DNA of 43,323 bases from Verrucomicrobiaceae bacterium (GTDB lineage: Bacteria > Verrucomicrobiota > Verrucomicrobiia > Verrucomicrobiales > Verrucomicrobiaceae): the NCBI GenBank assembly GCA_027487315.1, contig JAIYDW010000106.1, positions 1 through 43,323 of the forward strand, given 5' to 3'. The stretch's first letter is position 1; every line of letters begins with the position of its first letter. A model generated the notes under the pieces. The model saw nothing but the letters and a program-made list of their open reading frames with translations. It ran no database searches and was not told the origin of the DNA. The position numbers were made by a program, and so were the translations under genes. Positions 2,791 through 34,016 of the stretch are shown here, piece after piece.

Positions 2791-2818
2791 TTGCCCAAGC
2801 CACGAATCATGCTACGCT
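2791..2818 (+). promoter_or_regulatory. Possible promoter of tRNA-Arg
   Basis: A TTGCCC hexamer (2791-2796) and a TACGCT hexamer (2813-2818) are separated by 16 bp and end 15 bp before the mature tRNA start, a sensible arrangement for a sigma-70-type tRNA promoter. Pattern match only. Confidence 0.4.
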
Positions 2819-2833
2819 CCTCCCGCACGCAAC

Positions 2834-2907
2834 GCGCCCGTAGCTCAGTGGATTAGAGCACCGGATTTCTAATCCGATGGTCGTTGGTTCGAACCCAACC
2901 GGGCGTG
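2834..2907 (+). tRNA. tRNA-Arg, anticodon TCT
   Basis: The 74-nt sequence folds as a cloverleaf. The acceptor stem is GCGCCCG with CGGGCGT (one G-U pair), and the D arm starts GCTC. The anticodon loop TTTCTAA carries TCT, and the T loop is TTCGAAC. The discriminator base is G and CCA is not encoded. The first anticodon-stem pair is a C-A mismatch. The 3' half (from 2866) lies inside the 48-bp direct repeat that recurs at 23381-23428, so this tRNA is the attachment site of the island and stays complete after integration. Confidence 0.93.
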
Positions 2908-2913
2908 CCCCCT
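2866..2913 (+). repeat. attL: 48-bp direct repeat in the tRNA 3' half
   Basis: The repeat begins TTTCTAATCCGATGGTCGTT, that is at the anticodon loop, and runs six bases beyond the discriminator base. It is identical to 23381-23428 over 48 bp. Tyrosine integrases often recombine at tRNA anticodon or T-loop sequences. Confidence 0.92.
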
Positions 2914-2914
2914 A

Positions 2915-2935
2915 AAACCCTGATAATCAGGGTTT
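2915..2935. terminator. Perfect hairpin just inside the left end
   Basis: AAACCCTGA and TCAGGGTTT pair perfectly around a TAA loop. It lies directly after the tRNA and inside the island. It may end the tRNA transcript, although only a short T run follows. It could equally be an integrase or excisionase structural site. Confidence 0.4.
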
Positions 2936-3383: not shown

Positions 3384-6263
3384 GTGTTCGCCTCCCGAAT
3401 GTCCCCCGGCTCCATCGTTTCCTGTCGAAATCGCGACTGGGTTCTGCTTCCCGCAGATGACCCAGACGAGATTCGATTGCGTCCGCTGACTGGGGCCACC
3501 GATGAAGTCGTAGCACTGAACCGAAAGTTGGCGGACCTGGCAGGCGACACTTTCCCGGCAGAGCGAGTCAAATCCTCACAATTTCCTCCCCCGGCGGCCA
3601 CAGACATTTCCGATGCCTCATCGGCGCACCTCCTTTGGCAGTCCGCACGCCTTACGCTGCGCGAGGGAGCCGCCCCATTTCGCTCGCTAGGCCGCGTTTC
3701 CATTCGACCGCGCACCTACCAGTTTGTGCCGCTGCTCATGGCTCTGCGCCTGGAGACCGTGCGTCTTCTAATCGCCGATGACGTGGGCGTGGGGAAAACC
3801 ATCGAGGCAGGGCTTATCGCTCGTGAAATGTGGGACCGTGGCGAAATCCGTCGCCTTTGCGTGCTCTGCCCACCTTACCTCTGCGAGCAATGGCAAAAGG
3901 AACTCTCGGAGAAGTTCAATCTCGACGCCGTCATCATTCGCTCTGGAACCGTTGGCCCTCTGGAGCGCAAAAAGTCCGGCCCAGAAAGTATTTACCGCTA
4001 TTACCCAATTCAGATCGTCAGCATCGACTTCGTCAAATCAGAGAGGAACCGCCACGCCTTTCTCCAAGACTGTCCCGATCTCGTTATAGTGGACGAAGCG
4101 CATGGATCAGCTTTTGCGGAGGGCACCACTTCCGGGCAGCATCAGCGCCACCACCTCGTGAAGAGGCTCGCGGACAAAGAAGATCGCCATCTCATCCTCT
4201 TGAGTGCCACCCCACACAGCGGCGTGGACAGTGCTTTCCTCTCACTTCTTGGACTCTTGCAGCCTCAGTTTGTGAACTGGGACACCTCCCACCTCGACGA
4301 AGCCCAGCGCATCGCCCTCGCCCGTCATTTCGTGCAGCGCACTCGCAAGGACATCACCACCGACTGGGAGGGGGATCATTGTTTTCCTGACCGTGATCCG
4401 CGTGATGAGACGTACCGTTTATCGACGGCGTACCGTGAACTGTTTGAGCAAAGTTACGCCTTCTGCGCTGAACTCGTCCGTCCTGCGAAGGACCGTAACG
4501 AGCGGGAACAGCGCGTGAGGTACTGGGCTGCTTTGGCGCTGCTGCGCTGTGTCATGTCCAGCCCTGCGGCTGCAATGTCAGCGCTCGAGAACCGTCACGA
4601 TGGCCTGCCCGCCTCAGAAGATGACCCAGAGTTCCGCCAGCACATCTTCGAGTCCTCGGATGACCGCACCGACGACAGCCAGCCCACACCACCGCTGGAG
4701 CTTGCCCGCGAAACCATCGTCGAATCGGAGCGCCGGCGTTTAAGGGAACTCGGCAAGCTAGCCTCCGCCCTCGTCCACTCCCCAAAGGACAGCAAGCTCG
4801 CCCGCTGTATCGAGATCGTAGCCGACCTCATCGAAAAAGGCTTTCGTCCCATCCTCTGGTGCCGTTACATCGCTACGGCGGACTACCTCGCTGCCGGGCT
4901 GCAAAAAGCCCTTCAAAAGCGCTTCCCCGGCCTGCGGGTGCTCGCCATCACTGGCACCCTCAGCGACGACGAACGCCGCACTAAAGTCGAAGAACTCTCC
5001 GCCGAGAAGCTCCGCGTGCTCGTCGCCACGGATTGCCTCAGCGAAGGCATCAACCTTCAGCACGCTTTCGACTCTGCCCTGCACTACGACTTGCCTTGGA
5101 ATCCGAACCGCCTGGAGCAGCGCGAAGGCCGCGTGGACCGATACGGCCAGCGTGCTCCCACCGTCCGCACCATTCGCTATTTCAGCCCCGACAGCGCCGT
5201 GGATGGCGTGGTCATCGACGTGCTGTTGAACAAAGCCCGCGAGATCCACAAAACTCTCGGCACCCACGTTCCCGTCCCCGAGGACAGTGAATCAGTAACG
5301 GAGGCAGTGCTGAAAGCTCTCTTCCTTCGCGGCCAGCCCAAATTGGTATCCTCCGACATTCAGCAGCTCGAACTCGGTCTCGGCAGCTCCGATGTGGAGG
5401 ACTTTCACCGCCGTTGGGACATCGACGCCAATCGCGAGAAGCTCAACCGCACCCGCTTCGCCCAGCGTGCCTTGAAGCCCGCTGAGGTCGCCCGCGAGCT
5501 TGAGGCCACCGATGCCGTTCTCGGCGATCCTGAGGCGGTGCGCAGCTTCGTCCTGGATGCCGCTCAGCGACTCGGCATGACGCTTCAGCGGGACAAACAC
5601 ACCGACAGCTACACCATTCCCATCGCCCCCGGCACCATCGAGCACCTGCCTGAGGCTGTTCGTTTCGTCTTGCCGAAGTCAAAAGCCGCCGCGTGGCACA
5701 TCAGCTTCGCTTCCCCGACACCCGAGGGCGCGGAGTATCTCGGGCGGAATCACCGCTTCGTCACCACCCTGGCTCAGTTCCTCATGGAGGAAGCCATGAC
5801 CAAAGGCGGCGACGCCCGTGCCTCCCGCTGCGGTGTCATCCGCACCCGCGCCATTTCGAAGCTCACTACCCTCCTGCTTCTTCGTGTCCGCTATCTGCTG
5901 AAGCAGCCTGACCGCGCCGATCTCCTCGCGGAGGAAGTCCATGTCATCGGCTACCTCGGAGCTGCGCCGTCGAAAGATGGCGACTGGCTGCCTGAGGAGG
6001 CCGTTCTCCATCTCCTCGCCTCGGCGGAGCCCGATGCGAACATCAGCATGGAGGAGCGCCGCGAACTCGTCTCCCGCACGCTCGACTCGTGGCCCGCTCT
6101 CCAGGAGGCTATGAAGCCCCAGATTCTCGCCCGCGCCACGGCCCTGGCAGATAGCCACCGTCGCATCCGTCAGGCCGTCTCCATGCGTGTGCGTGAACTC
6201 AAAGTCGAAGCCCAGCTCCCGCCCGACCTTCTCGGCGTGCTCATCCTCCAGCCTCTCGTCTAG
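3384..6263 (+). CDS. DrmD-like SNF2-family helicase
   Basis: This 959-residue protein is the first gene of the operon. It has an N-terminal domain with R-P-R-T-Y-Q, then a Walker A motif D-D-V-G-V-G-K-T-I-E-A-G-L at about 130-142. D-E-A-H follows at about 237 and L-S-A-T-P-H-S-G at about 272. A C-terminal helicase lobe has V-A-T-D-C-L-S-E-G-I-N-L and Q-R-E-G-R-V-D-R-Y-G-Q at about 547-588. This is the RapA-like SNF2 class to which DISARM DrmD belongs, and DrmD is normally paired with an adenine methylase as here. The role would be ATP-driven DNA translocation and surveillance. The GTG at 3384 and an in-frame ATG at 3399 are both possible starts; the ATG gives the more DrmD-like beginning, M-S-P-G-S-I-V. 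The stop is 3 bp before the methylase ATG, so translation is probably coupled. Confidence 0.85.
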   Translation: MFASRMSPGSIVSCRNRDWVLLPADDPDEIRLRPLTGATDEVVALNRKLADLAGDTFPAERVKSSQFPPPAATDISDASSAHLLWQSARLTLREGAAPFRSLGRVSIRPRTYQFVPLLMALRLETVRLLIADDVGVGKTIEAGLIAREMWDRGEIRRLCVLCPPYLCEQWQKELSEKFNLDAVIIRSGTVGPLERKKSGPESIYRYYPIQIVSIDFVKSERNRHAFLQDCPDLVIVDEAHGSAFAEGTTSGQHQRHHLVKRLADKEDRHLILLSATPHSGVDSAFLSLLGLLQPQFVNWDTSHLDEAQRIALARHFVQRTRKDITTDWEGDHCFPDRDPRDETYRLSTAYRELFEQSYAFCAELVRPAKDRNEREQRVRYWAALALLRCVMSSPAAAMSALENRHDGLPASEDDPEFRQHIFESSDDRTDDSQPTPPLELARETIVESERRRLRELGKLASALVHSPKDSKLARCIEIVADLIEKGFRPILWCRYIATADYLAAGLQKALQKRFPGLRVLAITGTLSDDERRTKVEELSAEKLRVLVATDCLSEGINLQHAFDSALHYDLPWNPNRLEQREGRVDRYGQRAPTVRTIRYFSPDSAVDGVVIDVLLNKAREIHKTLGTHVPVPEDSESVTEAVLKALFLRGQPKLVSSDIQQLELGLGSSDVEDFHRRWDIDANREKLNRTRFAQRALKPAEVARELEATDAVLGDPEAVRSFVLDAAQRLGMTLQRDKHTDSYTIPIAPGTIEHLPEAVRFVLPKSKAAAWHISFASPTPEGAEYLGRNHRFVTTLAQFLMEEAMTKGGDARASRCGVIRTRAISKLTTLLLLRVRYLLKQPDRADLLAEEVHVIGYLGAAPSKDGDWLPEEAVLHLLASAEPDANISMEERRELVSRTLDSWPALQEAMKPQILARATALADSHRRIRQAVSMRVRELKVEAQLPPDLLGVLILQPLV

Positions 6264-6266
6264 TTC

Positions 6267-9200
6267 ATGGCCATTTTCCCTTCCATACGCATTGAAGGCG
6301 GCCTGCTGGGGCCGGACATGCTGGATCAGCTTTTCACGGGCAATCTCTCCGGTCAGAAACCCGCTGACTTCGGTCTCGCAGATCGCCGGAATCTCACGGA
6401 CGAAATCGCCGCCGTTTTTGCCGATGCCCGATCGCTCTGGGGTGTGTTTCAAAACCGCCTCGCCCGGCTCAATGAGGACGACCTCGCCACCACCGTCACC
6501 CGCGATGCGTGGGTCATTCCCTTTCTGGGACTGCTGGGATTTGAGCCGCGCTTGAATCAGCGCGCCCATGATGTCGATGGCCTCAGCTTCTTCATTTCCC
6601 ACCGGTCAGGAGAGCAGGAGGATGAACCGCCCATCCACATCGTCGGTGCGCGGCAAGAGCTGGGCCGTGTCGCAGCCAGTGGAAAGCCACGCCTCGCCCC
6701 GCACTCCCTCGTTCAGGAGTATCTGAACCGCACCGAGCATGTCTGGGGCCTTGTCACCAATGGCACCACGCTGCGCCTGCTGCGGGATTCATCCTTCGTC
6801 CGCCGCCAGTCCTACATCGAGTTCGATCTCGGGGCCATACTGGAGGAGCAGCGGTTTCAGGACTTCGCCGCGCTCTACCGCCTCATCCACCGCAGCCGCT
6901 TCCCGCGTGGCCTCAGCGACGCCGGCGACTGCCTGTTGGAGACCTACCACCTCCAGGCCGAGGAGCAGGGCGGCCGTGTCCGTGATCACCTCCGCGATGG
7001 CGTGGAGCGCTGCATCACCCTCCTCGCCAATGGCTTCCTCGATCACCCTGCCAGCGCCCCCTTGCGCGAGCGCATGGCGTCGCGGCTCATGTCTTCCGAG
7101 GACTTTTACCGCGAGCTGCTGAAGCTCGTCTATCGCTTCCTATTCCTCCTCGTGGCCGAGGATCGCGGTCTGCTCAGCCCTGCGCCCATTTACCGTGAGC
7201 ACTACGGCGTGAACCGCCTGCGCCGACTTCTGGAGCAAAGGGCCGCCTATACCGAGGATGACGACCTCTGGCAGGGCCTTCGTGTGCTCTGGCATTTGTT
7301 CGGGGATGACAATCTCGCCTCCATCCTCCAGCTCGCTCCCCTGAATGGCGAACTCTTCGCCCCCACCACGCTGGACGGTGGCTCCATCAAGAATCGCCAA
7401 CTCCTCACCGCCTTCTGGCACCTCGCCTGGTATCAGGAGCGGGAGACCGCCCCCGCCACGCGGGTGAACTACGCCGCGCTCGATGTCGAGGAGCTGGGCT
7501 CCATCTACGAGAGCCTGCTGGACTTCCACCCGCACTGTGCGCCCGACCTCGCCGGACGTTGGACCTTCCAGCTTGTCTTCGGCTCCGACCGAAAGACCAC
7601 CGGTTCCTTCTACACCCCGCCAGAGTTGGTCAATGAACTTGTCCGCAGTGCCCTTGATCCCGTCGTGAACGCTCGTCTCGCCGCCCTGCCGAAAAATGCC
7701 ACCCCTGAGATGCGGGCCGAGACCCTGCTCAGCCTCCGCGTCTGCGACCCTGCTTGCGGCTCCGGACACTTCCTGCTCGCCGCTGCTCGTCGTCTGGGCC
7801 GCGAACTCGCCCGCGCCCGCACAGGAGAGGACGAGCCTGCGCCCGAAAGAATGCGGGAGGCCACTCGCGAGGTCATCCGCCATTGCATCTACGGCGTGGA
7901 CCGCAATCGCCTCGCCGTGGACCTCTGCCGTGTTGCTCTCTGGATCGAGAGCCATGATGCCGACAAGCCCCTCGCCTTCCTCGACCACCGCATCCGCTGT
8001 GGTGACAGCCTCATTGGCGTCTTTGATCTTGAAGTGCTGAAGGACGGCATCCCCCAGGAAGCCTTCACCGCCCTCAGTAGCAGCGACGACAAAAAGTTCG
8101 CCCGTGAGGCTGCCAAGAAAAACAAAGATGACGTTGGCACCCTAGGCAGCCTCTTCCAGTGGAGCCCAGACGCCGCACTCTCCAAGCTCACCCTCGACGG
8201 CCATGCCGTGGACGAGCTGGACGACGACACCCCGGAGCATGTGCGGCAAAAGAAAGCCCGCTACGAGTCCATCCACCACGATCCTGAGTGGCAGCGCCTC
8301 CATGACGCTTGCGATCTCTGGACAGCCGCCTTCTTCCAGCGCCTGCGTGCGGATGAATCCCTCATCACCACCGCTAGTGTGGCGGACCGTCTCGCCGACA
8401 GGTCTCACGACATTGATCACTTGGAGTATGCCCAGGCTCTCGCCCGCCGCCAGCGTGCCTTCCACTGGCCGCTGGAGTTCCCCGAGGTCTTCGATGCTGG
8501 TGGCTTCCATGTCATCCTTTCCAATCCACCTTGGGAGCGTGTGAAGCTCCAGGAGCAGGAGTTCTTCGCCGCACGGGACATCAGTATCGCCACCGCACTG
8601 AACAAGTCAGAGCGGGCCAAACTCATCCGCGATCTGCCGAACCATCATCCTGAACTCGCGGAAGAGTGGGACATTGCGCAACGCAGTGCGGCAGCTTCCT
8701 CCAGCTTCATGCGCCATGCAGGGCGCTATCCGCTGGCTGGGCGTGGGGACATCAACACCTATGCCGTTTTTGCCGAACTCGCCGGCAAACTGACGCATCA
8801 GACCGGGCGCACGGGAATGATCCTACCCACCGGCATCGCCACTGATGACACCACGAAGATCTTCTTTGGCGACCTCGTGCGGAAGCAGCGGCTAGTATCC
8901 CTGACTGGCTACGAAAATGAAGCCTTCATCTTCCCCGCCGTGCATCATGCCTTCAAGTTCTGCACGCTCATCGTAGCGGGAGAAGGGCGTGGCCCGGCCT
9001 GCAGCCGACTTGCCTTCTTCATTCGCCGTTTCAGTGAACTGACCGAGGAAGCCCGCTTCTTCACGCTCACGCCAGATGAATTTGCCTTGCTCAATCCCAA
9101 CACCGGCAACTGCCCCATCTTCCGCTCCGCCGCCGATGCGGAGCTGACCAAGGCCATCTACCGCCGCGTTCCCGTGCTCTGGAAAGAGCGCTCAGAAGAC

Positions 9201-10580
9201 TCAAAAGAATCGAATCCTTGGCAACTCAGCTTTAAAACGCTGTTTCACATGGCGAATGACTCCCATCATTTCCGCACGGAGGACCAGCTCAGCGCCGAGG
9301 GCTACCGGCTGGAGGGGAATGTTTTTGTCAGCGCCTATGATCGCTATCTGCCGCTTTATGAGGCGAAGATGCTGCATCAGTTCGACCACCGCTTCTCCAC
9401 CTACCAGGGCGCTACAGATGCGCAGCTCAGGATGAAGACCCTGCCGCGCTGCACGCCTGCGCAGAAGACTGATCCGCGCTTCACCGCCCAGCCCACCTAC
9501 TGGGTGCGGGAGGAGATCGTCGAGTCCGCGGTCCCTCATTATCCCGAGGCCATACACATGGCCCTCACCTTCGGCTCGAAGACCAGCCTGCAACGCTTCT
9601 TCTGCTACTGGTGCGCCGGCTGGTTCATCAATCGGGATGAGAAGAAGCGCGGCCAGGAACTGCTGGACCTCGCCATGTCCTTTGACCTCGACGACAAACT
9701 CAACAGCTACCTGCGCGGCATCACCGCCCCACACTACGCCGCCGAAATGGAAGCCCGCTTCCCTCTCACCGCAGACGATGTGATAGCCATCCGCGCGAAT
9801 TTCAAGGAGCCCGAAGACATCGCCCGCGAGTTGGTTGAGAGGTTCAGCCCGAAGTGGTTCTTGGGTTGGCGAGACATCACGAACACCACCAACCAGCGCA
9901 CCACGATTTGTAGCGCTGTCCCGAAATCGGCGGTTGGTGATACCTTTTTGCTCATCGTGCCTACGCACCCTGCGACGCGTAAACGGTTCGTGATCTTGGA
10001 GGCGTGCCTAAATGCTTTCGTCCAAGATTTTGGTGCCCGGCAGAAGGTGGGTGGCACACACATGAAGTACAATGTGTTCCGCCAACTAGCAGTCCTGCCA
10101 CCGGATGCATTCGATAAGCCATGTGCCTGGATGACGGGGCAAAGCCTCGCAGACGTCCTCCTCCCCCGAGTTCTGGAGCTTGTTTACACCTCCCACGACC
10201 TAACCGTTCTGGCGCGGGACTGCGGCTACGATGGGCCGCCATTTGTCTGGGATGAAGACCGCCGCTTTGAGATCCGCTGCGAGCTGGATGCTGCATTTCT
10301 GCACCTCTATCTTCCCAGCACCAACACCGGCCACTGGCAGCCCGCCCCCGGCGAGACCGCCGCCGCCCTCTCCGCCCTCCAAAACGCCTTCCCCACCCCC
10401 CGCCACGCCGCCGAGCACATCCTCAACACCTTCCCCCTCATTCGCGAAGCCGACGAAAAACTCCACGGCCACTACCGCACCCGCGACCGCATCCTTACCC
10501 TCTACGACGCCATGCTCACCGCCCAGCGCACGGGCGCAGCCTTTCAATCCAGCCTGAGCCCAATGCCTGGCTCCCAATAG
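6267..10580 (+). CDS. DrmMI-like / Eco57I-type N6-adenine DNA methyltransferase (1437 aa)
   Basis: This very large methylase has Y-T-P-P-E-L-V at about 447. The SAM-binding motif I, D-P-A-C-G-S-G-H-F, is at about 493-501, and the catalytic N-P-P-W is at about 752, which together define N6-adenine methylases. A roughly 440-residue N-terminal region precedes motif I, and a long C-terminal region probably holds target recognition. The class occurs as type IIL/Eco57I enzymes, BREX PglX and DISARM DrmMI. With a DrmD-like helicase immediately upstream and no BREX genes (pglZ, brxC) anywhere in the window, DrmMI is the best match. It would mark host DNA as self. No clear nuclease motif was recognised, which argues against a self-contained restriction enzyme. 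The next gene starts 11 bp downstream. The last 100 codons are more C-rich than the rest. Confidence 0.85.
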   Translation: MAIFPSIRIEGGLLGPDMLDQLFTGNLSGQKPADFGLADRRNLTDEIAAVFADARSLWGVFQNRLARLNEDDLATTVTRDAWVIPFLGLLGFEPRLNQRAHDVDGLSFFISHRSGEQEDEPPIHIVGARQELGRVAASGKPRLAPHSLVQEYLNRTEHVWGLVTNGTTLRLLRDSSFVRRQSYIEFDLGAILEEQRFQDFAALYRLIHRSRFPRGLSDAGDCLLETYHLQAEEQGGRVRDHLRDGVERCITLLANGFLDHPASAPLRERMASRLMSSEDFYRELLKLVYRFLFLLVAEDRGLLSPAPIYREHYGVNRLRRLLEQRAAYTEDDDLWQGLRVLWHLFGDDNLASILQLAPLNGELFAPTTLDGGSIKNRQLLTAFWHLAWYQERETAPATRVNYAALDVEELGSIYESLLDFHPHCAPDLAGRWTFQLVFGSDRKTTGSFYTPPELVNELVRSALDPVVNARLAALPKNATPEMRAETLLSLRVCDPACGSGHFLLAAARRLGRELARARTGEDEPAPERMREATREVIRHCIYGVDRNRLAVDLCRVALWIESHDADKPLAFLDHRIRCGDSLIGVFDLEVLKDGIPQEAFTALSSSDDKKFAREAAKKNKDDVGTLGSLFQWSPDAALSKLTLDGHAVDELDDDTPEHVRQKKARYESIHHDPEWQRLHDACDLWTAAFFQRLRADESLITTASVADRLADRSHDIDHLEYAQALARRQRAFHWPLEFPEVFDAGGFHVILSNPPWERVKLQEQEFFAARDISIATALNKSERAKLIRDLPNHHPELAEEWDIAQRSAAASSSFMRHAGRYPLAGRGDINTYAVFAELAGKLTHQTGRTGMILPTGIATDDTTKIFFGDLVRKQRLVSLTGYENEAFIFPAVHHAFKFCTLIVAGEGRGPACSRLAFFIRRFSELTEEARFFTLTPDEFALLNPNTGNCPIFRSAADAELTKAIYRRVPVLWKERSEDSKESNPWQLSFKTLFHMANDSHHFRTEDQLSAEGYRLEGNVFVSAYDRYLPLYEAKMLHQFDHRFSTYQGATDAQLRMKTLPRCTPAQKTDPRFTAQPTYWVREEIVESAVPHYPEAIHMALTFGSKTSLQRFFCYWCAGWFINRDEKKRGQELLDLAMSFDLDDKLNSYLRGITAPHYAAEMEARFPLTADDVIAIRANFKEPEDIARELVERFSPKWFLGWRDITNTTNQRTTICSAVPKSAVGDTFLLIVPTHPATRKRFVILEACLNAFVQDFGARQKVGGTHMKYNVFRQLAVLPPDAFDKPCAWMTGQSLADVLLPRVLELVYTSHDLTVLARDCGYDGPPFVWDEDRRFEIRCELDAAFLHLYLPSTNTGHWQPAPGETAAALSALQNAFPTPRHAAEHILNTFPLIREADEKLHGHYRTRDRILTLYDAMLTAQRTGAAFQSSLSPMPGSQ

Positions 10581-10591
10581 AATGCGACGCG

Positions 10592-12421
10592 ATGATTAAG
10601 GAAGTCCGCCTCCAAAACTTCAAACGCTACCGCGATCAGGTCTTCACTTTTAGACCTGATGGAATCACGTTACTCGCGGGAGGAAACAACTCTGGCAAGT
10701 CCACGGTGCTCCAGGCGCTTGCTGTCTGGGAGTTTTGTCGGGCGTTGGTTGAAGCTGCAAAAGGTCGTCGTGCTTTGAACGCGGGTGTGCGGACCGATCC
10801 GGCTGGAGTGAGCAATGAGGAGTTTTCGCCGATTGCGCTGCCGTCTCTAGAGCATCTTTGGACAAACCTTGATGGAAAACCAATGGTCGCAGATGCTGAA
10901 ATTGACCCGACCTATACTCTACGCATCTCAGTGACTTGGGATGTCGAGGCGGCCGTAGTGGAAGGACAGCCCCAACCACCATCCGTGGAGCACCAGCTTC
11001 AATTTGGCCTTAAACTCCTTCATCATCACGTATATGTGAAGCAGACCAACTCGACGCTCCAGGATGCCACACCAATCCCTCGGTTTGCATACTTACCGCC
11101 ATTTGCAGGGATTCAAACTCGTGAGGAGAGGATGTCCCCAGCGGCCCAAAAGCGGTTGATCGGGCGTGGACTAGCGGGTGCCGCGCTGCGAAATGTGATC
11201 CATGACTTGCACCGCCGAAGCGAAACAGAGTTTGCGAACCTTCGAGGCGCACGGCGTCGAATGAGCGTGGTAGAGCGTCAACAGTTCTTTCGCCGAGATC
11301 CTTGGTCTCAGTTGGTGGACGTTCTCCAGCGAGTGTTCCAAGCAGGACTTGCAGTTCAGCCCTTCAATGACGATTACAACACCGTCCTGCATGTGGACTT
11401 GTTTCGTGGCAATTTTCAGAACGGAAACTTCACGAGATTCGCAAATTTCACCCCTCGTGACATCATGGTTGAAGGCAGCGGTTTCCTGCAATGGCTGAGC
11501 GTGTATGCCCTGGCAGTGTCCCCAGAGATCAATATTCTTCTCCTCGACGAGCCAGATGCCCACTTGCATCCGACACTGCAAGCTCACCTCCTTGAGAGGT
11601 TGCGCGCGCTTGCTGTAGAGAACCGAAAGCAGGCTCTATTAGCGACTCATTCAACGGAGATTCTGCGACAGGTTGATCATCGAATGATTTTTGAGTTTAG
11701 CCGAAATCGAACGGGATACCTCGTGCAAAGTGAACAGCGAGTTGGGTTGTTCCATGGACTTGGTAGCGACTATGCACCGAAACTAGATCAACTTCGCCAA
11801 CACCGCCGTGTCATCTTCGTTGAAGGCACGTTCGAGGAGCCAATCCTGCGGATTTTCGCAGAGAAAATGGGACAGCCATTACCCCAGAATCTTGTGTTCT
11901 GGATTTACAATGGTGAACACACCCAGCGTCGCGTCTTATTCGAGCAGTTGCGCACTGAGATTCCAAACCTGAAAGGTATGTCGTTGCGAGACCGCGATTC
12001 TTTGGAGCTTGCGGAAGTTAACGCAAACCTCACCCAGAATAACTATCCTGATCGCAACGAATTGAGAATGAGAACATGGAGACGACGACAGATGGACAAT
12101 TACCTCCTCCTTCCGGCTGCCATCTCTCGTGCAGCGAATCGCCAGGAGGCTGATGTAACGCAGTTTTTCGCCGATCATTGGGGCCTCGCGGTGGGAGCCA
12201 ATCCTACAGCATCGAATTGTTCTCCCGGTTTGCTTGACGCAAGGGGGAAGGAGATTCTGACAGAAGGTCTGCCAGCGCGAAACCTTGAACCCGCAAAGCC
12301 CTCTGTGGAATCTGCATTGGGGTGCTCTCGTCATGATGTAGCACGCCATTTTGAAGCTGCCGAAGTCCCCGAGGATGTGCGTTTGATCGTTACGCAGCTT
12401 CATGCGCTTTGTCAGCCTTAA
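10592..12421 (+). CDS. OLD-like ABC ATPase with TOPRIM-like C-terminal region
   Basis: This 609-residue protein opens like SMC/RecF/OLD ATPases (M-I-K-E-V-R-L-Q-N-F-K-R-Y). The Walker A motif G-G-N-N-S-G-K-S-T is at about 29-37, and a signature-like V-E-G-S-G-F-L-Q-W is at about 292. Walker B L-L-L-D-E-P-D-A-H-L-H-P is at about 315-326, and the H-loop A-T-H-S is at about 351. After the ATPase lies V-I-F-V-E-G-T-F-E-E (about 408) and then L-R-D-R-D-S (about 466), the Glu and Asp-x-Asp pattern expected of a TOPRIM nuclease domain. OLD-family proteins are ATP-regulated DNA nucleases used in anti-phage systems. This is not a standard DISARM component, and its fixed position between methylase and CBS gene makes it part of the operon. 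The TOPRIM assignment is an inference from spaced motifs. Confidence 0.75.
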   Translation: MIKEVRLQNFKRYRDQVFTFRPDGITLLAGGNNSGKSTVLQALAVWEFCRALVEAAKGRRALNAGVRTDPAGVSNEEFSPIALPSLEHLWTNLDGKPMVADAEIDPTYTLRISVTWDVEAAVVEGQPQPPSVEHQLQFGLKLLHHHVYVKQTNSTLQDATPIPRFAYLPPFAGIQTREERMSPAAQKRLIGRGLAGAALRNVIHDLHRRSETEFANLRGARRRMSVVERQQFFRRDPWSQLVDVLQRVFQAGLAVQPFNDDYNTVLHVDLFRGNFQNGNFTRFANFTPRDIMVEGSGFLQWLSVYALAVSPEINILLLDEPDAHLHPTLQAHLLERLRALAVENRKQALLATHSTEILRQVDHRMIFEFSRNRTGYLVQSEQRVGLFHGLGSDYAPKLDQLRQHRRVIFVEGTFEEPILRIFAEKMGQPLPQNLVFWIYNGEHTQRRVLFEQLRTEIPNLKGMSLRDRDSLELAEVNANLTQNNYPDRNELRMRTWRRRQMDNYLLLPAAISRAANRQEADVTQFFADHWGLAVGANPTASNCSPGLLDARGKEILTEGLPARNLEPAKPSVESALGCSRHDVARHFEAAEVPEDVRLIVTQLHALCQP

Positions 12422-12434
12422 CAATTCTCGCTAG

Positions 12435-14108
12435 ATGTCCCCCACACTCAAAGACCTTCTCCCTCCCGATCAGCAACCGCTCACGATTCAGCCGCACGAA
12501 TCCGTGATGGAAGCCATCGAACGGCTGCGTGCTCATCAATACAACCAGCTTCCTGTCGTTGATGACCAAGGGCGCTGCCGTGGCGAGGTGGTGACTTATG
12601 AAACGATTCTTCATGCTGCCCTGGCGTTCGAGACCGAACCGGCAAAGCTCAAGGTCAAAGACGCCACCAAACGCGTGCCCACCTATGGGGCCGACGACGA
12701 TCTGCTGACCACGCTGGATGCGATTCAGCGCAGCGACTTTGCTCTGATTTTGGGAGAGGAAAAAAAGCTAACCGGAATCGTCACTACCGCTGACACCACG
12801 GCGTATTTCCACAAGTATGCAGGTGACCTCATGATGATCGAAGGGGTGGAGGTCAGCATCAAGGAGGCCATCGAGATCCTTTACGGCGGGCTACAAGAGC
12901 CCGCGCTGACCGAAGCTATCGAATCAGTAACAGATCGGGCCTCTGACACACGCAAAAAGCTGCCAGCGGCGATCAAAGCCTATCTCGGAAAAATGAATAT
13001 GGCGCCGCCACAAGGTGACGAAACCGAGGCTTTGGCCTTAGCCGAGACGAAGCTCAACTTGCCCAAAGCTGGCAAACCCTTCGACCGACTCACCTTCGAC
13101 GAATACACCGACATACTGCTTCGCCATCCGAAGGCTCCTCGTGTCGGAGAAACCGACAGTGCAGCAACAATTAGGAAGCTCCTGCACACCGTTCGAGATG
13201 CGCGCAACAAGCTGGCGCACTTCCGTGGTGACGTTACTATTCGCGAACGAGCGGACATTAAACTTGCCGCTGAATGGCTCGAACGGCATCAACCAACGCC
13301 GCTTCCACTACCTACACCAACTCCTACTCCTCGCCCCAATGATTTTGATCTTGTGGCATCGAATCCTCCCTACGAGAATAAGGGGGAAGAGGACTCAACA
13401 CCCCAAGGCAAGTATGCAGCACTTTCAAAGCACCTCGGTGATATGGACTCATCCGCCGAAAGCTGCCTAATGACCTTTACCGACATCGAGAAGCTGCTGA
13501 ATGAGAAGCTTCCCGAGTCTGCTTATGAATATCGGGCATGGTGGGCCAACGATCCGTCCAAACCTCATGCAGCCGGATGGTTGGCTCAAGGCTGGAAGGC
13601 TCAGTCACTCAGCATGTCGGAAAAGCGGCTCACTTTTGTCCGAACGGATGACCGGCAGAGGGCCTACATCGCTTTCTTCAGCCGCCTCAACACACTTGTG
13701 GCAGAGCACCCAGAGTTTCCGCTGCGCAATCTCAGCCCCCAAGGACAGAATTGGCAAACGCTGGCCTCTTTACAGGCTGTGGGAATGCAGACGGCTGACA
13801 TTGTAGGTGCCTTTGTACGTCAAGGCAGGTTCAGAATCGAACTCTATCTCGATGACTCCAATGAACTGGCTAACAAAGCACGCTTTGATGCATTGAATGC
13901 TCGCCAAGTCGAATTTGAACAAGCTTTCGGGGAGCCTTTGGCGTGGGAACGCCTCGAAGGCCGTCGCGCCTGTCGAATTGCGATCTACACCGCTGCAAAC
14001 ATTCTAACCGACAGCGAAAACGAGGAGGTGCTGGAATGGGCCGTGAACAAAGCCCGCGCATTCCACCGCGTGTTTGCGTCAGAGTTTGGAATCCTGGCCC
14101 GGGACTAA
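12435..14108 (+). CDS. CBS-pair protein with HEPN-like motif and DUF4268 C-terminus
   Basis: This 557-residue protein has three visible parts. Residues about 14-125 form two CBS repeats (first E-S-V-M-E-A-I-E-R-L with N-Q-L-P-V-V-D; second with F-A-L-I-L-G and L-T-G-I-V-T-T-A-D). CBS pairs usually bind adenine nucleotides or SAM and regulate an attached domain. Residues about 215-285 contain D-A-R-N-K-L-A-H-F-R-G, an R-x4-H motif typical of HEPN ribonuclease or Swt1-like domains. Residues about 345-555 contain a W-W-x-N segment and then a DUF4268-like region with F-R-I-E-L-Y-L-D and L-A-W-E-R-L-E. A Pro-Thr linker lies at about 290-300. The protein may be a nucleotide-sensing effector or regulator of the operon. 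Start ATG is 13 bp after the ATPase stop. The exact function is unknown. Confidence 0.7.
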   Translation: MSPTLKDLLPPDQQPLTIQPHESVMEAIERLRAHQYNQLPVVDDQGRCRGEVVTYETILHAALAFETEPAKLKVKDATKRVPTYGADDDLLTTLDAIQRSDFALILGEEKKLTGIVTTADTTAYFHKYAGDLMMIEGVEVSIKEAIEILYGGLQEPALTEAIESVTDRASDTRKKLPAAIKAYLGKMNMAPPQGDETEALALAETKLNLPKAGKPFDRLTFDEYTDILLRHPKAPRVGETDSAATIRKLLHTVRDARNKLAHFRGDVTIRERADIKLAAEWLERHQPTPLPLPTPTPTPRPNDFDLVASNPPYENKGEEDSTPQGKYAALSKHLGDMDSSAESCLMTFTDIEKLLNEKLPESAYEYRAWWANDPSKPHAAGWLAQGWKAQSLSMSEKRLTFVRTDDRQRAYIAFFSRLNTLVAEHPEFPLRNLSPQGQNWQTLASLQAVGMQTADIVGAFVRQGRFRIELYLDDSNELANKARFDALNARQVEFEQAFGEPLAWERLEGRRACRIAIYTAANILTDSENEEVLEWAVNKARAFHRVFASEFGILARD

Positions 14109-14120
14109 CGAAGTAATACA

Positions 14121-17100
14121 ATGAGCGTCTTTGCCCTCCACCAATCCGTCCTCTCAGACTACCGCGACTTCGTGCGGTCGTTCTTCTCCGTGAACGACGA
14201 CCGGGCACGGCAGTATGTGGAGCAAGCACTCGACCAAGAGAGTCGCTTGTGGCCTGACTTCCTCCTCCAAGTTAGTCCATCGTATGCCCGCGTCTCCACG
14301 GTGGACGACCTCGCCGCCCGAGGTGTGCTACATCCTGAGACGGCTCGAATATTCCGCACGGCGGAGGGGCATCCCTTCCACCTGTATCATCATCAGGTGG
14401 GCGCACTGGAACGTGCAGCGAGTGGCGGCAGCTATGTCGTGACCAGCGGCACAGGATCGGGCAAGAGCCTGACGTATTTCCTTCCCATCATCGACAACCT
14501 GCTGCGCAATCCACCCACGGGGGATCGCGTATCGGCGCTTGTGGTGTATCCAATGAACGCGCTAGTGAATAGCCAGGTGCAGGCGCTGGAGAAACTGCGC
14601 ATGGACTACGAGCGCCGGACCGGGGCACACTTTCCCGTCACCTTTGCCAAATACACAGGGGAGACTGCAAACAACAGCCGTCAGGACATGAGACTGCAAC
14701 CACCTCAGATCATGCTCACGAATTATGTGATGGCAGAGTTGCTGCTCGTGAGGCCTGAGGATCAGCGGTTCCTCGACCACGCTGGCGGTGGCCTTCGTTA
14801 CCTCGTCTTCGACGAACTGCATACCTACCGTGGCCGCCAGGGGGCGGACGTGGCGCTGCTGATTCGCCGTCTGAAGGAGCGCTGTGCCGCGCCCAACATG
14901 ATCTGTGTGGGCACCAGCGCAACGATGGTCTCCAGCCGCAATGCGACGCCCGTCGAGCGGCGGACTGCCGTGGCGGAGTTTGCCACGAAACTCTTTGGCC
15001 AGCCTCTTACCGAGGCTCAAGTCGTGGAAGAAACCCTTGAGCCCTACACCCTCGGAAACGCGCCATCCTTGCATGAACTGGCCCAAGTGGTGGCCGCTCC
15101 TCTACCCGCGCTGGCCTTGCATGAGTTTCGACATCATCCGCTGGCCCGCTGGGCGGAGTCCGAGTTCGGCGTGGAACCGGAACCGGGGGACCAGACCCGA
15201 CTGCGCCGACGCGTGCCACGCACTCTGGCTGAAGCGGCGGGACGGCTTGCTGAGGCCAGCGGAGCCGATGCTGATGTATGCCTGCAACGCCTGCAGGAGG
15301 TGTTGACTCGTGGAGGCGAGCTGGACCGTGAGGACGGTGGACGTGCCTTTGCCTTCAAACTACATCAATTCATCGGCCAGGGCCGGGCGCTCTTTGCCAC
15401 GCTCGAAGACACGGCTTCGCGGGAGTTCTCCATGGAGGGTCAACTGCTCGCCGGCGAGGGACGCATCTTTGCCCCGATCAAATTTTGCCGTCAGTGTGGG
15501 CAGGACTACTACCATGTGCTGAAACCACGCCAGGGGGACCGACTCCAACCGCATCCTGTGGGGGCAGAGAGCGAAGACGAAGACCTGACCAAGGGCTACC
15601 TGATGCTGGCCCCAGCCGAGAATGATTGGAGCACGGATCGCATTCCCGACGAGTGGCGTGATCCACGCGGGCGACTCAAGCCGACATGGCGCGAGCGTGT
15701 GCCCGAGGCAGTTTGGGTCTCGCCCAATGGCAACTTCAGCGGGACAGAACGCCCTGGAGCCATCAAAATGTGGTATCAGCCGCAGCCTTTCAGTCTGTGT
15801 CTATGCTGCGGAGAATACTATTCGTCGAGGGAGAAGGAGTTCGGGAAACTGGCCTCGATCTCCAGCGAAGCCCGAAGCAGCGCAACCACGGTGCTCGCTA
15901 CGTCCTTGCTCCGACACTCGGGAGGTGAAGGCAACCCACGAGACAAGCTGCTGACCTTTACCGACAACCGCCAGGATGCTTCACTCCAGTCCGGGCACTT
16001 CAATGACTTCGTCCATGTATCCCTCCTGCGTTGTGCGCTGTATGGGGCACTCCAACAGCAGCCGACGCTGACTTTTGATCGAGTGGCAGAGGCGGTCGTA
16101 GCGGCCTCCGGCCTCAGCGTTGACCACATCGTCCACGAGCGCAATGCTGGGCTCGATCCCAATTCGCAGGCGGCCCGCGAAGTGATGCAGGCATTTACCG
16201 AACTCACCGAATACAGGCTCTACGAAGACCTCCGCCGGGGCTGGCGAGTCGTGCAGCCGAACCTGGAGCATGTGGGCCTGCTCAGGGTTGGGTATCGGGG
16301 GCTGGACGAAGCCTGTGCTAATGCCAATGCATGGGCCTTTCACCCCGCCGCCGCAGCCCTGCCACAGGAAGAGCGCAGAATCATCGTGAAGGCGATCTTG
16401 GACCACTTTAGGCGCAAGCTTGCCATTGCCAGCCGCTGCCTTCAGGAAACGCCACAGCAGCAGCTACGCCGGCGCTCTGAGCAGCGCCTGAACGAGTTCT
16501 GGGGCCTCGATGAGTCGGGAATGGAACTTCGGCAATCGACGAGGTTTGTGTTGCTTGGGGATTCGTCCCGCGCTGTCGAGGGATTTAGCCTCAATCAACG
16601 AAGCAAGCTGGGCCGGTTCATCTGCCAGCGCCTTCACCTCGATGCCTCGGAGTACAACGGTGTCGCTGGCCGCCTGCTGGATTTGCTAGCTGGGCAGGGC
16701 TTGCTTGCCCGCCTTGATCCTGTGGACGACCACCGCTTTTTCCAGCTCGATGCCTCCTGTCTGCTCTGGCAACTGGGCGACGGCTCACCGCCCATTCCTG
16801 ACCCTCTGTATTCTCGTCGTGCAACGGCGGACGGCTACCAGGAGGTTCCAGCGCCCGTGAATGCATTCTTCGTGCGGTTTTATCGGGAAACAGCAGCCAG
16901 ACTGGCAGCGCTTGAAGCCCGAGAACATACTGCGCAGGTCGTCAAACAAGGTGAGCGTGAGCGCCGGGAACGACGTTTCCGCTGGGAGGAGCGAGACACC
17001 ACCAAGGAGCGCGACGGGCTTCGTCGTCTGCCCTATCTTGTTTGCTCACCCACGATGGAACTGGGGGTGGATATTGCCGATCTCGACCTTGTCCACATGC

Positions 17101-19223
17101 GCAATGTGCCACCGACGCCGGCGAACTACGCGCAGCGAAGTGGTCGTGCCGGACGCCAGGGCCAGCCGGGATTGATCTTCACTTATTGCGGCGCGCTCAA
17201 CAGCCACGATCAGTATTACTTCCGCAACCGCACCGAGATGGTGGCTGGAAGCGTGAAACCTCCACAAATCGAACTGGCAAACGAGGCTCTCCTTATCGCC
17301 CACTTGCACGCCGTTTGGCTGGGGCAGGTGCGTTTGCCTCTGGGAACTTCCATCGAGGACACCATCGAGACCGAAATCGAAGGATTGCCGCTGAAGGAGA
17401 ATGTTCGGCAGTCCATCGTCTTGTCGGACACTGACCGCGAGCAAGTCAGAGCCAGAGTGCGCCGCCTTTTCGAGGCAGACGCCGGCACCCTCGAAAGCTG
17501 CGGCTGGTTTTCCGATGTATGGATCGACCAAGTGCTGCGAGATGCTCCCACCGCGTTCGATGTCGCCTTCAACCGCTGGAGAGAACTTTACCGCGCTGCC
17601 ATGAGGCAGATGATGGAGGCCCAAAGTGCCGTCCTCCGTGCAAGGCAACGCGACGAGCAGGAGATCGCGCGGCGGAGGGCAGACGAAGCCTTGCGGCAAC
17701 TCAATTTGTTGCGCCAGATCAGTGTTTCTCGTGAGGAGGGCGACTTTTACCCCTATCGCTATCTTGCAAGTGAAGGGTTCCTCCCCGGTTACAACTTCCC
17801 AGCCTTGCCTGTTCGGGCCTGGATTCCACGAGAGGATGGAGAGTTCATTCCTCGGCCTCGATTCCTGGCGCTGAGAGAGTTTGCCCCCGGCAACTTTGTT
17901 TACCACGAAGGCCGGCGTTGGGAGGTCAGCAGTTTTCAAGCTCCTCCAGGAGGATTGGAAGAGAGGCGCAGGCAAGTCAGACTCTGCCGCACCTGTGGGG
18001 CTTTCAGTGATCCAACCTTGGACCGCTGCCCGAACTGCGACACTCGCTTCGCTGCTGACAACTCCCAGTCCACCACGCTGCTGGATATGCCCAACGTCCG
18101 CTGCCGTCCTCGCGAGAGGATCACCTGCGATGAAGAAGAGCGTCTGCGCCGTGGCTACGACTCCGAGACCGTCTATCAGTTTGCCCGAACGGCAGGCGGA
18201 ATACCTCGAACACAGGAGGCTGATGTCGTCGTGAACGGCACGCCCGTGATGCGATTGATCTATGGGCCTGCGGCCACCGTCCTCCGTATCAATCACGGCT
18301 GGCGTGCGGCTCCGCAGCCCGGATTTTTGATGGATTTCGAGAGTGGTGAAGTTTTCCACGCGGCTCCCCCAAATGCTGGTGCCGCACCGCCAAGACCACG
18401 CCGTCTGGAAAGAATCAGGCTGGCCGTCCAAGGCACCCAGAACGTGCTGGTTGTGCGCCTGCTACGCCCAGAACTCACCGCTGTGGAAACCAGCCTGCAA
18501 TACGCCCTGCTGAGGGGTTGCGAGCAATTGTTCCAACTTGAGGAGGCTGAGCTGTCTGCTGAACGAATTGGCTCGGGAGACCACCGCGCCATTTTGCTTT
18601 ATGAGGCATCGGAAGGTGGTGCAGGTGCCCTGCGGCGTCTGGTGGACCCAGGCATCCTCAACCAAGTGGCGAGCGAGGCTCTTGTGCGCTGCCACTACGA
18701 TGAGCATGGCAACGACCAGCGCACGCAGTGTGTCGCGGCGTGTTATGAGTGCCTCATGAGCTTCGGCAACCAGCATGAAGCTGCATCTTTGGATCGACGG
18801 CAGATTCGCCAGCACCTCCTTAATCTAGCTGGGGGGCAGGTTCTCCCACGAATCGGCGGAAGAGATTGGCATGCGCACCTCGCTTGGCTTCGATCACTCA
18901 CAGACTCACGCTCGGAGATCGAGCGACGGTTTCTCGATGCATTGGCGGACGGTCAACATCGACTCCCCGACGAAGCACAACGCGGCATTGATCACCCCCG
19001 CTGCATTCCAGACTTTTTCTATCAGCCAAACATCTGCGTTTTTTGTGATGGATCTGTGCATGACACACCCGGTCAAGTTCAGCGTGATCAGGAGATTCGC
19101 AGCGAACTATTGTTACGCGGATACCGAGTAATCGCCATTCGGTACGATCTGGACTTGAATGAGCAACTGTCAATTCATCCAGATGTTTTCGGAATCGGGC
19201 GGAGTCCAGGCAACATTCGTTGA
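14121..19223 (+). CDS. Giant DExH helicase with DUF1998 and Vsr-like nuclease domain (DrmA/DrmB- or DruE-like)
   Basis: In this 1700-residue protein the order is as follows. Walker [10 protein letters not shown] is at about 108-116, D-E-L-H at about 231, and G-T-S-A-T at about 263. Two Cys pairs (C-R-Q-C-G, C-L-C-C-G) lie at about 455-560. The second helicase lobe includes T-D-N-R-Q-D-A-S at about 613 and M-E-L-G-V-D-I with [10 protein letters not shown] at about 977-1013. A zinc ribbon C-x2-C...C-x2-C is at about 1290-1307. A DUF1998 region ends in C-V-A-A-C-Y-E-C-L at about 1537. A final 100-residue domain carries I-P-D-F-F and V-F-C-D-G-S-V-H-D (about 1628-1646), matching the Vsr pattern P-D-I-V and F-V-H-G-C-F-W-H. 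Helicase plus DUF1998 recalls DISARM DrmA plus DrmB, or Druantia DruE. The start ATG is 12 bp after the CBS gene. It is the last gene of the operon. Confidence 0.82.
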
Positions 19224-21034: not shown

Positions 21035-21256
21035 TCAGGATCTGCTGGTGTGACCGTTCTTGGTTTTCGCAGTAACGCGGCAGCGTTCACGCAATGCCTC
21101 ATCTACTTCGGCCGGATTGAGGCGAACAGCGCCCCCGACTTTATAATGCGGCAGAACTCCGGTGGAAATCAGGGTGTCAATTGTCCGCAGTGACAAGGTG
21201 AGCCGTACAGCAGTTTGTTTTCTCGTATGAAGGGATTCAATGGGTGGGATATTCAT
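21035..21256 (-). CDS. Excisionase-like HTH DNA-binding protein
   Basis: From the ATG at 21256 the product has 73 residues: M-N-I-P-P-I-E-S-L followed by K-Q-T-A-V-R-L-T-L-S-L-R-T-I-D-T-L-I and L-P-H-Y-K-V-G-G-A-V-R-L-N. This is the MerR-like winged HTH layout of excisionases and HTH_17 proteins: a helix-turn-helix, then a beta wing with K-V-G-x-x-x-R. Such proteins bend DNA at the attachment sites and direct the integrase towards excision. An upstream in-frame ATG at 21355 would add 33 residues, but those look non-coding. It lies in the same orientation as the integrase. The basic tail ends T-S-R-S. Confidence 0.72.
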   Translation of the reverse strand: MNIPPIESLHTRKQTAVRLTLSLRTIDTLISTGVLPHYKVGGAVRLNPAEVDEALRERCRVTAKTKNGHTSRS

Positions 21257-21469
21257 CGCCTTCAGTTTAGCGAATGACTTTCCGTGCAGGTGGGTGCTTG
21301 GATGCCCTGCGAATCGGTGCATATGCGATTGCTGAAAAGTCTGACGAATTGCCAATTCGTGCTAATTGCGTTAGGAAATGGTGCAAGTACGCTCCGCGTA
21401 AATGCGCAAAGGGTGCAAAGGGTGCAAATCGGCCTCAACTTTACGCCGCGCAGTCGTCAACAGCAATTT

Positions 21470-22117
21470 TCAGGTATATGCATTTTTTTGTTTTCTCCGC
21501 TTCCAGGTGCGTTTCGCCTTCTTGCCGAAAGCCTCAGCGAACCGGGGATGTGACTGCGCGATGAGGAACGCCCATCTCCAGAAAAAAAACTCATTGGGGC
21601 ACGAGCTTTCGGCGATCCGGGCCAAATCAGGGTTGGCTTTTGTTACTTTCTTTACAGCGATCTCCCGCTTCTTGATGCTCGGGCTCCTGCCGCCAAGTAA
21701 TGCTCTCCAGCAGGCGGCAGCAGAAGCAGGAAATCTTTTCGGCGGTTTAATGGTATCACTTCCAGGCCAGTTCTTGGCCTCATGCAACATCAGAAGATAA
21801 TCATCAGGGTGAGTTTTTGGAGAGTGAACTTCAACGCCTGGATTGGCAAACCGCAGCTCTTCAGCTTGTTTCTCCGTATGTGCCCAAATCGGAGCCGCGG
21901 GCTTCCCTTCTTCACTCAAACGAAGCGCTGCCTGCTGTAACAGTTCAATGGCGCCATCGATATCGGCCTGCTTTTCGCCCTTCATCACAGCGAGAGACAC
22001 CGAGATCTGAGCCACTTCAAACGCAGTAGGTGATGAAGACTTCATCGGAACGGCGCCCATTGATACTGCAGACTTTCCAGGGCCGAAAGGCAGCCCGAAA
22101 GGAAAACGCTTGCTCAT
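21470..22117 (-). CDS. Island protein of unknown function downstream of the integrase
   Basis: This 215-residue protein begins with the ATG that overlaps the integrase stop (ATGA), so both are made from one transcript. An N-terminal Gly/Pro-rich stretch is followed by a helical region (I-D-G-A-I-E-L-L-Q-Q-A-A-L-R-L). The C-terminal third has W-R-A-L-L and W-R-W-A-F-L-I-A and a strongly basic tail rich in K and R, compatible with DNA binding. No known family is recognised. Coupling to the integrase suggests a role in integration or its control, but this is inference. Confidence 0.6.
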   Translation of the reverse strand: MSKRFPFGLPFGPGKSAVSMGAVPMKSSSPTAFEVAQISVSLAVMKGEKQADIDGAIELLQQAALRLSEEGKPAAPIWAHTEKQAEELRFANPGVEVHSPKTHPDDYLLMLHEAKNWPGSDTIKPPKRFPASAAACWRALLGGRSPSIKKREIAVKKVTKANPDLARIAESSCPNEFFFWRWAFLIAQSHPRFAEAFGKKAKRTWKRRKQKNAYT

Positions 22118-23280: not shown

Positions 23281-23291
23281 TGCGCCAAGTT

Positions 23292-23340
23292 GCACAAAAA
23301 TGCACAGAAAAGCAACTCATTTCCATTACAAAACCATTAC
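23292..23340 (+). repeat. Right copy of 49-bp end module with paired CCATTAC sites
   Basis: It is collinear with the copy at 2984-3032. GCACAAAAATGCAC is at its start, and CCATTAC at 23323-23329 and 23334-23340 has the same 11-bp period. It lies between the integrase start and its likely promoter. Confidence 0.7.
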
Positions 23341-23380: not shown

Positions 23381-23428
23381 TTTCTAATCCGATGGTCGTT
23401 GGTTCGAACCCAACCGGGCGTGCCCCCT
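23381..23428 (+). repeat. attR: second copy of the 48-bp direct repeat
   Basis: It is identical to 2866-2913. Only the tRNA 3' half is present (anticodon loop to acceptor). The 5' half is missing, so this is a scar of integration and not a second tRNA gene. Confidence 0.92.
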
Positions 23429-32376: not shown

Positions 32377-32455
32377 CCCTTCCATGTATTGGCAGTGGAT
32401 AAAATGAAATGGGAATTAGCAACGATCCGAATCAAGACTTAAACAACCATCAATA

Positions 32456-34003: not shown

Positions 34004-34016
34004 TTTTAATTAAACC

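Follow-up and report, generated by a model that had tools for sequence, protein, structure and literature searches.

The ARMADA defence system was described in a preprint (PMC12458937, Bell et al. 2025) as composed of three proteins: ArmA, a helicase resembling BrxHII/RapA; ArmB, a methylase resembling PglX; and ArmC, a YprA-family helicase that ends in a Vsr-type nuclease and is closest to DruE of Druantia. According to the text of the same source, Type I loci have the gene order C-A-B, and many archaea and cyanobacteria show the reversed order A-B-C. Type II loci carry an additional gene, ArmD, and their defence is non-abortive and requires all four genes; the ARMADA loci of E. coli lie in tRNA-integrated elements. 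Here we analysed a five-gene operon of a Verrucomicrobiaceae bacterium, located at positions 3384 to 19223 of a stretch of 43,323 nucleotides (contig JAIYDW010000106.1, assembly GCA_027487315.1) that we call the window. Genes 1, 2 and 5 of this operon are, from their sequences, an ARMADA core of the Type I-like kind, closest to loci of Thermus plasmids. The operon as a whole is probably a Type I-like ARMADA in the A-B-C order, carried on a tRNA-integrated element, with two accessory effectors between ArmB and ArmC, the first of them in an exchangeable position (slot 3). The core is a known system and ordinary; the embedded, exchangeable effectors are the unusual part.

Effectors of this kind have been described in other modification-restriction operons. 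OLD-TOPRIM and HEPN backup effectors are embedded in BREX loci, a recurring pattern of accessory nucleases (PMC12839542), and PrrC is silenced by the linked restriction-modification enzyme EcoprrI and activated by an anti-restriction factor (PMC2610378). These cases, in which an OLD-ATPase or RNase effector lies in or is linked to a modification-restriction operon, are precedents for a backup role of genes 3 and 4; the difference is that the host operon here is ARMADA and that its effector slot was seen exchanged between near-identical operons. The words DUF4268, OLD, CBS, HEPN and PARIS are all absent from the main text of the ARMADA preprint in a whole-word search, and literature searches, with supplements outside their scope, found no published description of ARMADA with this embedded gene pair.

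The ARMADA core and its relatives

The five genes lie on the plus strand with intergenic gaps of 3, 11, 13 and 12 bp. Gene 1 (3384..6263, 959 amino acids) encodes an ArmA-like helicase of the SNF2/RapA, BrxHII-like type and gene 2 (6267..10580, 1437 amino acids) an ArmB-like N6-adenine methylase of the PglX/DrmMI type. Gene 3 (10592..12421, 609 amino acids), the cargo of slot 3, encodes an OLD-type ABC ATPase with a TOPRIM-like C-terminus, and gene 4 (12435..14108, 557 amino acids) a protein with CBS, DUF7662 and DUF4268 domains and a HEPN-like motif. Gene 5 (14121..19223, 1700 amino acids) encodes an ArmC-like DEAD helicase of the YprA/DruE type with MZB/DUF1998 and a C-terminal motif resembling Vsr/PD-(D/E)XK nucleases. 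An open reading frame (ORF) check agreed with the coordinates, strand and gaps of the initial annotation, and Pfam bore out its domain calls for the five genes, except that two of its terms correspond to motifs only: the HEPN-like part of gene 4 and the nuclease end of gene 5. A promoter consensus search at 2800-20000 found 0 instances where 4.2 were expected in shuffles, and no Shine-Dalgarno-like sequence was seen by eye ahead of the five starts.

Gene 1 contains the Pfam domains SNF2-rel_dom and Helicase_C, matches the profiles of RapA, BrxHI/HII and DrmD, and has a Walker A motif (DVGVGKT, residues 133-139) and a DEAH box (237-240). Its best PADLOC match is the DpdE model, at full length and with 654 bits versus 327 for DrmD, so that automated calling may mislabel ARMADA as Dpd. 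Gene 2, which begins 3 bp after gene 1, contains Eco57I/N6_Mtase, matches the DrmMI and PglX profiles, and has methylase motif I (DPACGSG, 494-500) and NPPW (753-756). Gene 5 contains DEAD, Helicase_C and MZB (32 bits, cut-off 24.2) and matches DruE (DruE3) at 3e-90 versus 4e-12 for DrmA in PADLOC. Its C-terminal motif PDF.......VFCDGS.H (residues 1630-1647), for which Pfam reported no nuclease domain, is common to the sister locus G321 presented below, to six cyanobacterial loci and to several others, and was lost in still others.

We compared loci bearing ArmC from named plasmids, one IMG/VR contig, the genomes of relatives and E. coli ATCC 8739. Homologues of ArmA, ArmB and ArmC occur together in Type I-like loci of Thermus, cyanobacteria, Deinococcus, Nocardioides and others. 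By blastp, the window ArmC scored 790-1216 bits against 24 Type I-like loci other than G321, versus 124 bits against the Type II ArmC of E. coli ATCC 8739 and 104 against DruE III. A quick maximum-likelihood tree of 28 ArmC rows groups the window and G321 with two Thermus loci (Shimodaira-Hasegawa-like approximate likelihood ratio support of 100) and places the six cyanobacteria in another A-B-C group; 16 rows have the order C-A(-B), and the order label needs two changes. Since both rows from E. coli sit on very long branches, the root of this tree is unsure; the Type I clade is labelled by gene content and by these two long-branch references. Among the genomes of the family, 10 of 68 have an ArmC of the window type; two of these ten (the window and G321) show the order A-B-X-Y-C, and the other eight start with C-A, several being truncated ahead of ArmB. 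By blast, 24 of the 26 ARMADA-like loci compared have neither gene 3 nor gene 4, several of these loci being cut at contig ends. The search of viral contigs gave no match to ArmC.

The locus shares with Type I ARMADA its three proteins and an A-B-C order known from many archaea and cyanobacteria, and differs in the two extra genes between ArmB and ArmC. The A-B-C order is also that of Type II, which was validated in E. coli; Type II was ruled out by the distant ArmC and by the lack of ArmD 3' of ArmC, since no ORF of at least 300 amino acids other than the integrase lies between ArmC and the element end, the stretch to which this search was limited. Druantia was rejected as well, as there are no DruH or DruABCD partners: among the best 25 matches per protein, the four adjacent genes have DpdE/DrmD, DrmMI, NsnB/AriA and PDC-S11 at the top.

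Other observations concern ARMADA-like loci elsewhere. Both Thermus plasmids, Dolichospermum and Deinococcus radiodurans (L046, L052, L049 and L051) have an ArmB that is split into at least two ORFs, the Deinococcus gene having an IS630 inside. A C-A-B ARMADA-like locus was found on a contig classed as viral (L053, IMG/VR 3300048855_000223), where inspection by eye indicated ORFs resembling a resolvase upstream and a primase/VirE downstream, which fits carriage by phage-like elements.

Exchange of slot 3 and the embedded genes

A search of genome contigs with gene 4 gave a single match, the record that we call G321 (JABTUN010000002.1, a Verrucomicrobiaceae metagenome-assembled genome). Its proteins are 94% (ArmA), 87% (ArmB), 81% (gene 4) and 92% (ArmC) identical to those of the window; gene 3 is absent and an unrelated ORF of 626 amino acids stands in its place. 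The DNA homology between the two operons breaks off at window position 10570, with 10 bp of ArmB still to come, and begins anew exactly with the start codon of gene 4 (12435). The outer limits of homology are 3337 and 19147, and the compared 36 kb of G321 show none beyond them; the flanks of the two operons therefore differ. Slot 3 was exchanged precisely between near-identical operons. A second genome has four of the five genes, open and in unchanged order, at 80-94% protein identity, which confirms the view of the initial annotation that the genes are not together by chance. Its proposal of a distinct five-gene unit did not hold, since the middle genes are not conserved: gene 3 is replaced in the nearest relative and the relatives of gene 4 are found away from ARMADA. 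Of the last three genes, only gene 5 is a conserved neighbour of genes 1 and 2; the core of genes 1, 2 and 5 is already a named system, and the five together are not a conserved unit.

The 626-residue slot protein had no match in Pfam, PADLOC or NCBIfam and none by sequence in PDB, no plasmid match at 1e-5 and no match in viral contigs; it was found in 0 of 288 phylum genomes at 1e-8, in a search without positive control. It contains five R-x(4-6)-H strings, which are suggestive of HEPN, although such short strings also occur by chance. A single-sequence structure prediction gave a mean predicted local distance difference test (pLDDT) score of 36.4.

We then scanned the window and G321 proteins for divergent regions with a maximal-segment test on amino acid differences, using 300 shuffles as null. 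The highest scores in ArmB fell at residues 1213-1300 (61% different, score 52.6) and 769-824 (62% different, score 35.0), with a third segment at 714-727 (score 11.1) just above the largest null of 10.9. In gene 4, residues 418-557, the DUF4268 part, are 44% different (score 20.3) and the linker at 288-309 scored 12.1, against a largest null of 10.1; the tail of ArmC (1671-1700) scored 30.6 against 11.6. ArmA had no segment above its own shuffle null. Because the shuffles ignore unequal constraint, the gene 4 linker and the ArmC tail may just be loose. In the four affected windows of ArmB, each of 50 residues, 0.57-0.67 of the codons for identical residues differ synonymously, versus 0.08-0.40 in the other windows, which suggests that the divergent blocks were acquired by recombination exchange. 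The rise is smaller in DUF4268 (0.55-0.69 versus 0.21-0.54 in the rest of gene 4), and the values of the ArmC tail are inside the range of the remaining ArmC. Since they lie after NPPW and near the C-terminus, ArmB blocks 769-824 and 1213-1300 are probable target-recognition regions.

Gene 3 belongs, judging from its motifs, to the OLD-type ATPases with TOPRIM-like residues. Pfam reported AAA_15/AAA_21 and no named domain in the C-terminus, and the protein contains the strings GGNNSGKS, LLLDEPD, VEGTFEE (410-416), RDRD (466-469) and DNYLL (502-506). Among the TOPRIM-like residues E411, D467 and D469, the glutamate and the first aspartate are invariant in four homologues and the second aspartate is lost in one of them (L011). 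PADLOC matches include NsnB, AriA (2e-22), GajA and AriAB (4.6e-16). The likeness to PARIS, Gabija and other OLD/ABC ATPase plus TOPRIM effectors consists of these matches and acidic motifs; the difference is that gene 3 is one fused protein of 609 amino acids inside ARMADA, and GajB is not beside it, its neighbours being ArmB and gene 4. Gene 3 has matches in 4 of 288 phylum genomes (E <= 1e-20) and, at 1e-30, in 1 of 288 order genomes, its own; plasmids gave 12 weak matches of at most 81 bits. The nearest relatives found are about 26-30% identical, and in the three other loci examined they all lie directly 3' of a DNA methylase gene: an IIG-like methylase with Schlafen and phospholipase D (PLD)/SNF2 genes behind an integrase, a Type III methylase with a ResIII gene, and an IIG-like methylase.

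Pfam reported a CBS pair, DUF7662 and DUF4268 in gene 4, which agrees with the initial annotation for CBS and DUF4268. The HEPN-like motif RN(K/D)LAH (RNKLAH in the window, residues 257-262) is kept in all five aligned homologues, and no HEPN domain was reported by Pfam, PADLOC or NCBIfam. The nearest described protein is DS-11, a validated one-protein CBS-HEPN system whose defence requires the tyrosine of the CBS ligand site and the HEPN catalytic residues, as described in the DefensePredictor study (Science 2026, PMC13092281). Gene 4 resembles it in having a CBS pair and a HEPN-like motif in one protein and differs by the addition of DUF7662 and DUF4268; it scored 92.3 bits with the DS-11 equivalog NF053863 (cut-off 260), the best stretch being over the CBS part. 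The DUF4268 part matches the PADLOC candidate PDC-S11, and DUF4268 is reported as most often joined to GmrSD-type domains (PMC4619093). A structure prediction made with one homologue had a mean pLDDT of 42.9, and fold comparison of this model, mainly over residues 407-557, pointed to DR_1245, the YbjN family and type III secretion chaperones (Z up to 8.8), a likeness that is only a lead, as scores near Z 8.8 are common.

Homologues of gene 4 were detected in 4 of 386 order genomes and in 1 of 387 phylum genomes, its own. The four order carriers are the window, G321 and two others at 70% and 62% identity, around which no match to ArmB, ArmC, gene 3 or the slot protein was found within 30 kb; one of the two (G313) has a generic SNF2-type ORF about 2.5 kb upstream and a 415-residue ORF 83 bp upstream. 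A relative on an Anabaena plasmid is 33% identical, and the 48 kb examined of the 80-kb plasmid contain no match to the core. ARMADA genes are missing nearby in all three other loci. Viral contigs gave one 38% match, covering residues 325-403. We also observed in the linker of gene 4, in the region of residues 310-313, an NPPYENKGEE string resembling N6-methylase motif IV, which is present in three of five homologues and altered or absent in the other two. On a Burkholderia glumae plasmid (L044, 9506-15842), a small gene and then a 4.5-kb gene for an AAA ATPase come after a gene for a DUF4268 protein, and the DUF4268 gene is found across many B. glumae plasmids.

The ArmB-ArmC junction was surveyed across the loci compared by the distance between the ends of tblastn matches, which includes unaligned gene ends. 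It exceeds 1.3 kb in 8 of 10 A-B-C loci, being 3.5 kb in the window, 3.6 kb in G321, 1.4-5.3 kb in cyanobacteria and 45 bp in the two Thermus loci. Distances above 1 kb were found in 1 of 16 ArmC-ArmA junctions and 1 of 18 ArmA-ArmB junctions. Three further loci, outside these counts, comprise two tight C-A-B loci and L075, which has a 2.8-kb gap between ArmA and ArmB (3879-6576, G548) whose two ORFs, a further accessory pair, look by eye PD-(D/E)XK-like in one case and of a coiled-coil membrane type in the other. The cyanobacterial junctions hold AAA and radical SAM genes in Nostoc, VapC in Dolichospermum, UPF0175/DUF3368 and others in Euhalothece, Uma2 in Planktothrix, DUF2513, Rpn and PIN/AbrB in Chroococcidiopsis, and PIN, DUF6516 and an exonuclease in Pseudanabaena.

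Proposed working and rival explanations

In the working that we infer for the operon, ArmB would methylate the host DNA at a target site set by its two variable blocks, and unmodified, probably replicating, phage DNA would come under attack from both helicases together with the nuclease-like C-terminus of ArmC. The proteins of genes 3 and 4 would be second-line effectors. The OLD-TOPRIM-like protein may be silenced by the modification-restriction complex or respond to inhibition of that complex, and the CBS-HEPN-like protein may become active when its CBS pair binds an adenine nucleotide. Once the first line is overcome, either effector would cleave tRNA/RNA or DNA and halt the infected cell.

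Several points weigh against two accessory effectors in an exchangeable position. The A-B-X-Y-C arrangement is known from two loci only, so the association of cargo and core could be passive hitch-hiking, and the closest outside relatives, the two Thermus loci, have no cargo at the ArmB-ArmC junction. Toxin-antitoxin-type genes are present at this junction in four of the six cyanobacterial loci, which favours passive insertion there. The HEPN assignment of gene 4 comes from a motif and the TOPRIM call of gene 3 from motifs and partial GajA/AriAB profiles; both structure models are poor (mean pLDDT of 43 for gene 4 and 36 for the G321 slot protein), too much so for conclusions on the entire proteins. 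The tight spacing could also reflect an obligate function of all five genes.

The genes could instead be passive cargo at an insertion-tolerant junction, genes 3 and 4 being independent, stand-alone defence genes with nothing in common beyond the promoter and the mobile element. The 1.3-5.3 kb between ArmB and ArmC matches in 8 of 10 A-B-C loci, the varied cyanobacterial junction genes (toxin-antitoxin-type, Uma2, Rpn, exonuclease, AAA and radical SAM) and the gene-4 relatives found without ARMADA speak for this explanation, which we nevertheless regard as unlikely: the slot exchange is exact to the gene borders, the gene-3 relatives lie directly 3' of a DNA methylase in three of three other loci, and accessory nucleases inside BREX are described as a recurring pattern (PMC12839542). 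The opposite explanation, one obligate five-component system in which the OLD-like and CBS proteins are sensors gating the helicase-nuclease core and the slot-3 proteins are interchangeable sensor modules, would account for the single strand and tight gaps, for the retention of gene 4 in both A-B-X-Y-C loci and for the divergence of both DUF4268 and the methylase blocks between the window and G321, as expected of matched parts. It appears improbable given the unrelated proteins in slot 3, the gene-4 relatives without the core in all three other loci and the absence by blast of genes 3 and 4 from 24 of 26 ARMADA-like loci, several cut at contig ends; a conserved five-gene system is ruled out by the slot exchange and by the gene-4 relatives away from ARMADA.

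The initial annotation had read the operon as a rearranged DISARM. The relatedness to DISARM and Druantia is borne out by profile matches, DrmD and DrmMI being among the top matches of genes 1 and 2, and the annotation correctly noted that drmA and drmB are replaced by one helicase-DUF1998-nuclease-like protein and that drmC is absent among the five genes. DISARM class 1, however, has a separate DrmA and a DUF1998-bearing DrmB, whereas gene 5 encodes one fused protein, and the operon includes neither a drmB of its own nor a PLD gene. The DrmD equivalog scored 362.8 bits, below its cut-off of 610, and gene 5 matches DruE far better than DrmA; in its strict form the reading is refuted. With the core matching ARMADA, named in 2025 (PMC12458937), the DISARM reading is superseded and scarcely credible.

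The accessory-effector reading may be carried one step further, to an exchangeable guard slot in ARMADA. An effector in this slot, between ArmB and gene 4, would be linked to whether the modification-restriction complex is intact, DUF4268 would be a fast-changing recognition domain that diverges together with the methylase blocks, and specificity, sensor and killer would be shuffled as one cassette; this extension is doubtful at present. If the accessory-effector reading is true, it extends to ARMADA the rule known from BREX and PrrC, that a modification-restriction operon carries its own second-line killers, and it places the domain of unknown function DUF4268 in a protein related to one with validated defence activity. 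The window and G321 are a natural pair of near-identical operons differing in slot 3, the methylase variable blocks and DUF4268, and they offer a ready-made test of what each of the three controls.

The mobile element and neighbouring genes

The operon is carried by an element of about 20.5 kb in a tRNA-Arg gene. This tRNA-Arg (TCT) gene (2833..2910, plus strand) is the probable integration site, and its 3' part, to 3 bp past its end, is the first copy of a 48-bp direct repeat (2866..2913, plus strand) that forms one end of the element. An exact second copy at 23381..23428 (plus strand) forms the other end, adjoined by a gene for a tyrosine integrase of 393 amino acids (22114..23295, minus strand); the exact repeat at the tRNA gene and the adjoining integrase identify the operon as cargo of this element. 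The last 41 bp of the repeat have no other occurrence in the window with up to 3 mismatches allowed. An HTH_17 protein (21035..21355, minus strand) is a possible excisionase or regulator of the element.

An HNH_2 protein is encoded at 23714-24676, between the element and a second defence locus at 25160-34566, just outside it. This locus encodes an HSP90-like ATPase (MzaB), Z1 (MzaC), DUF4420 (MzaD) and AIPR (MzaE) proteins, a C5 methylase and Vsr, with PADLOC matches to Mza proteins. The C5 methylase (32456-34003), also outside the element, has DruM2 among its many matches, DrmMII being the better one.

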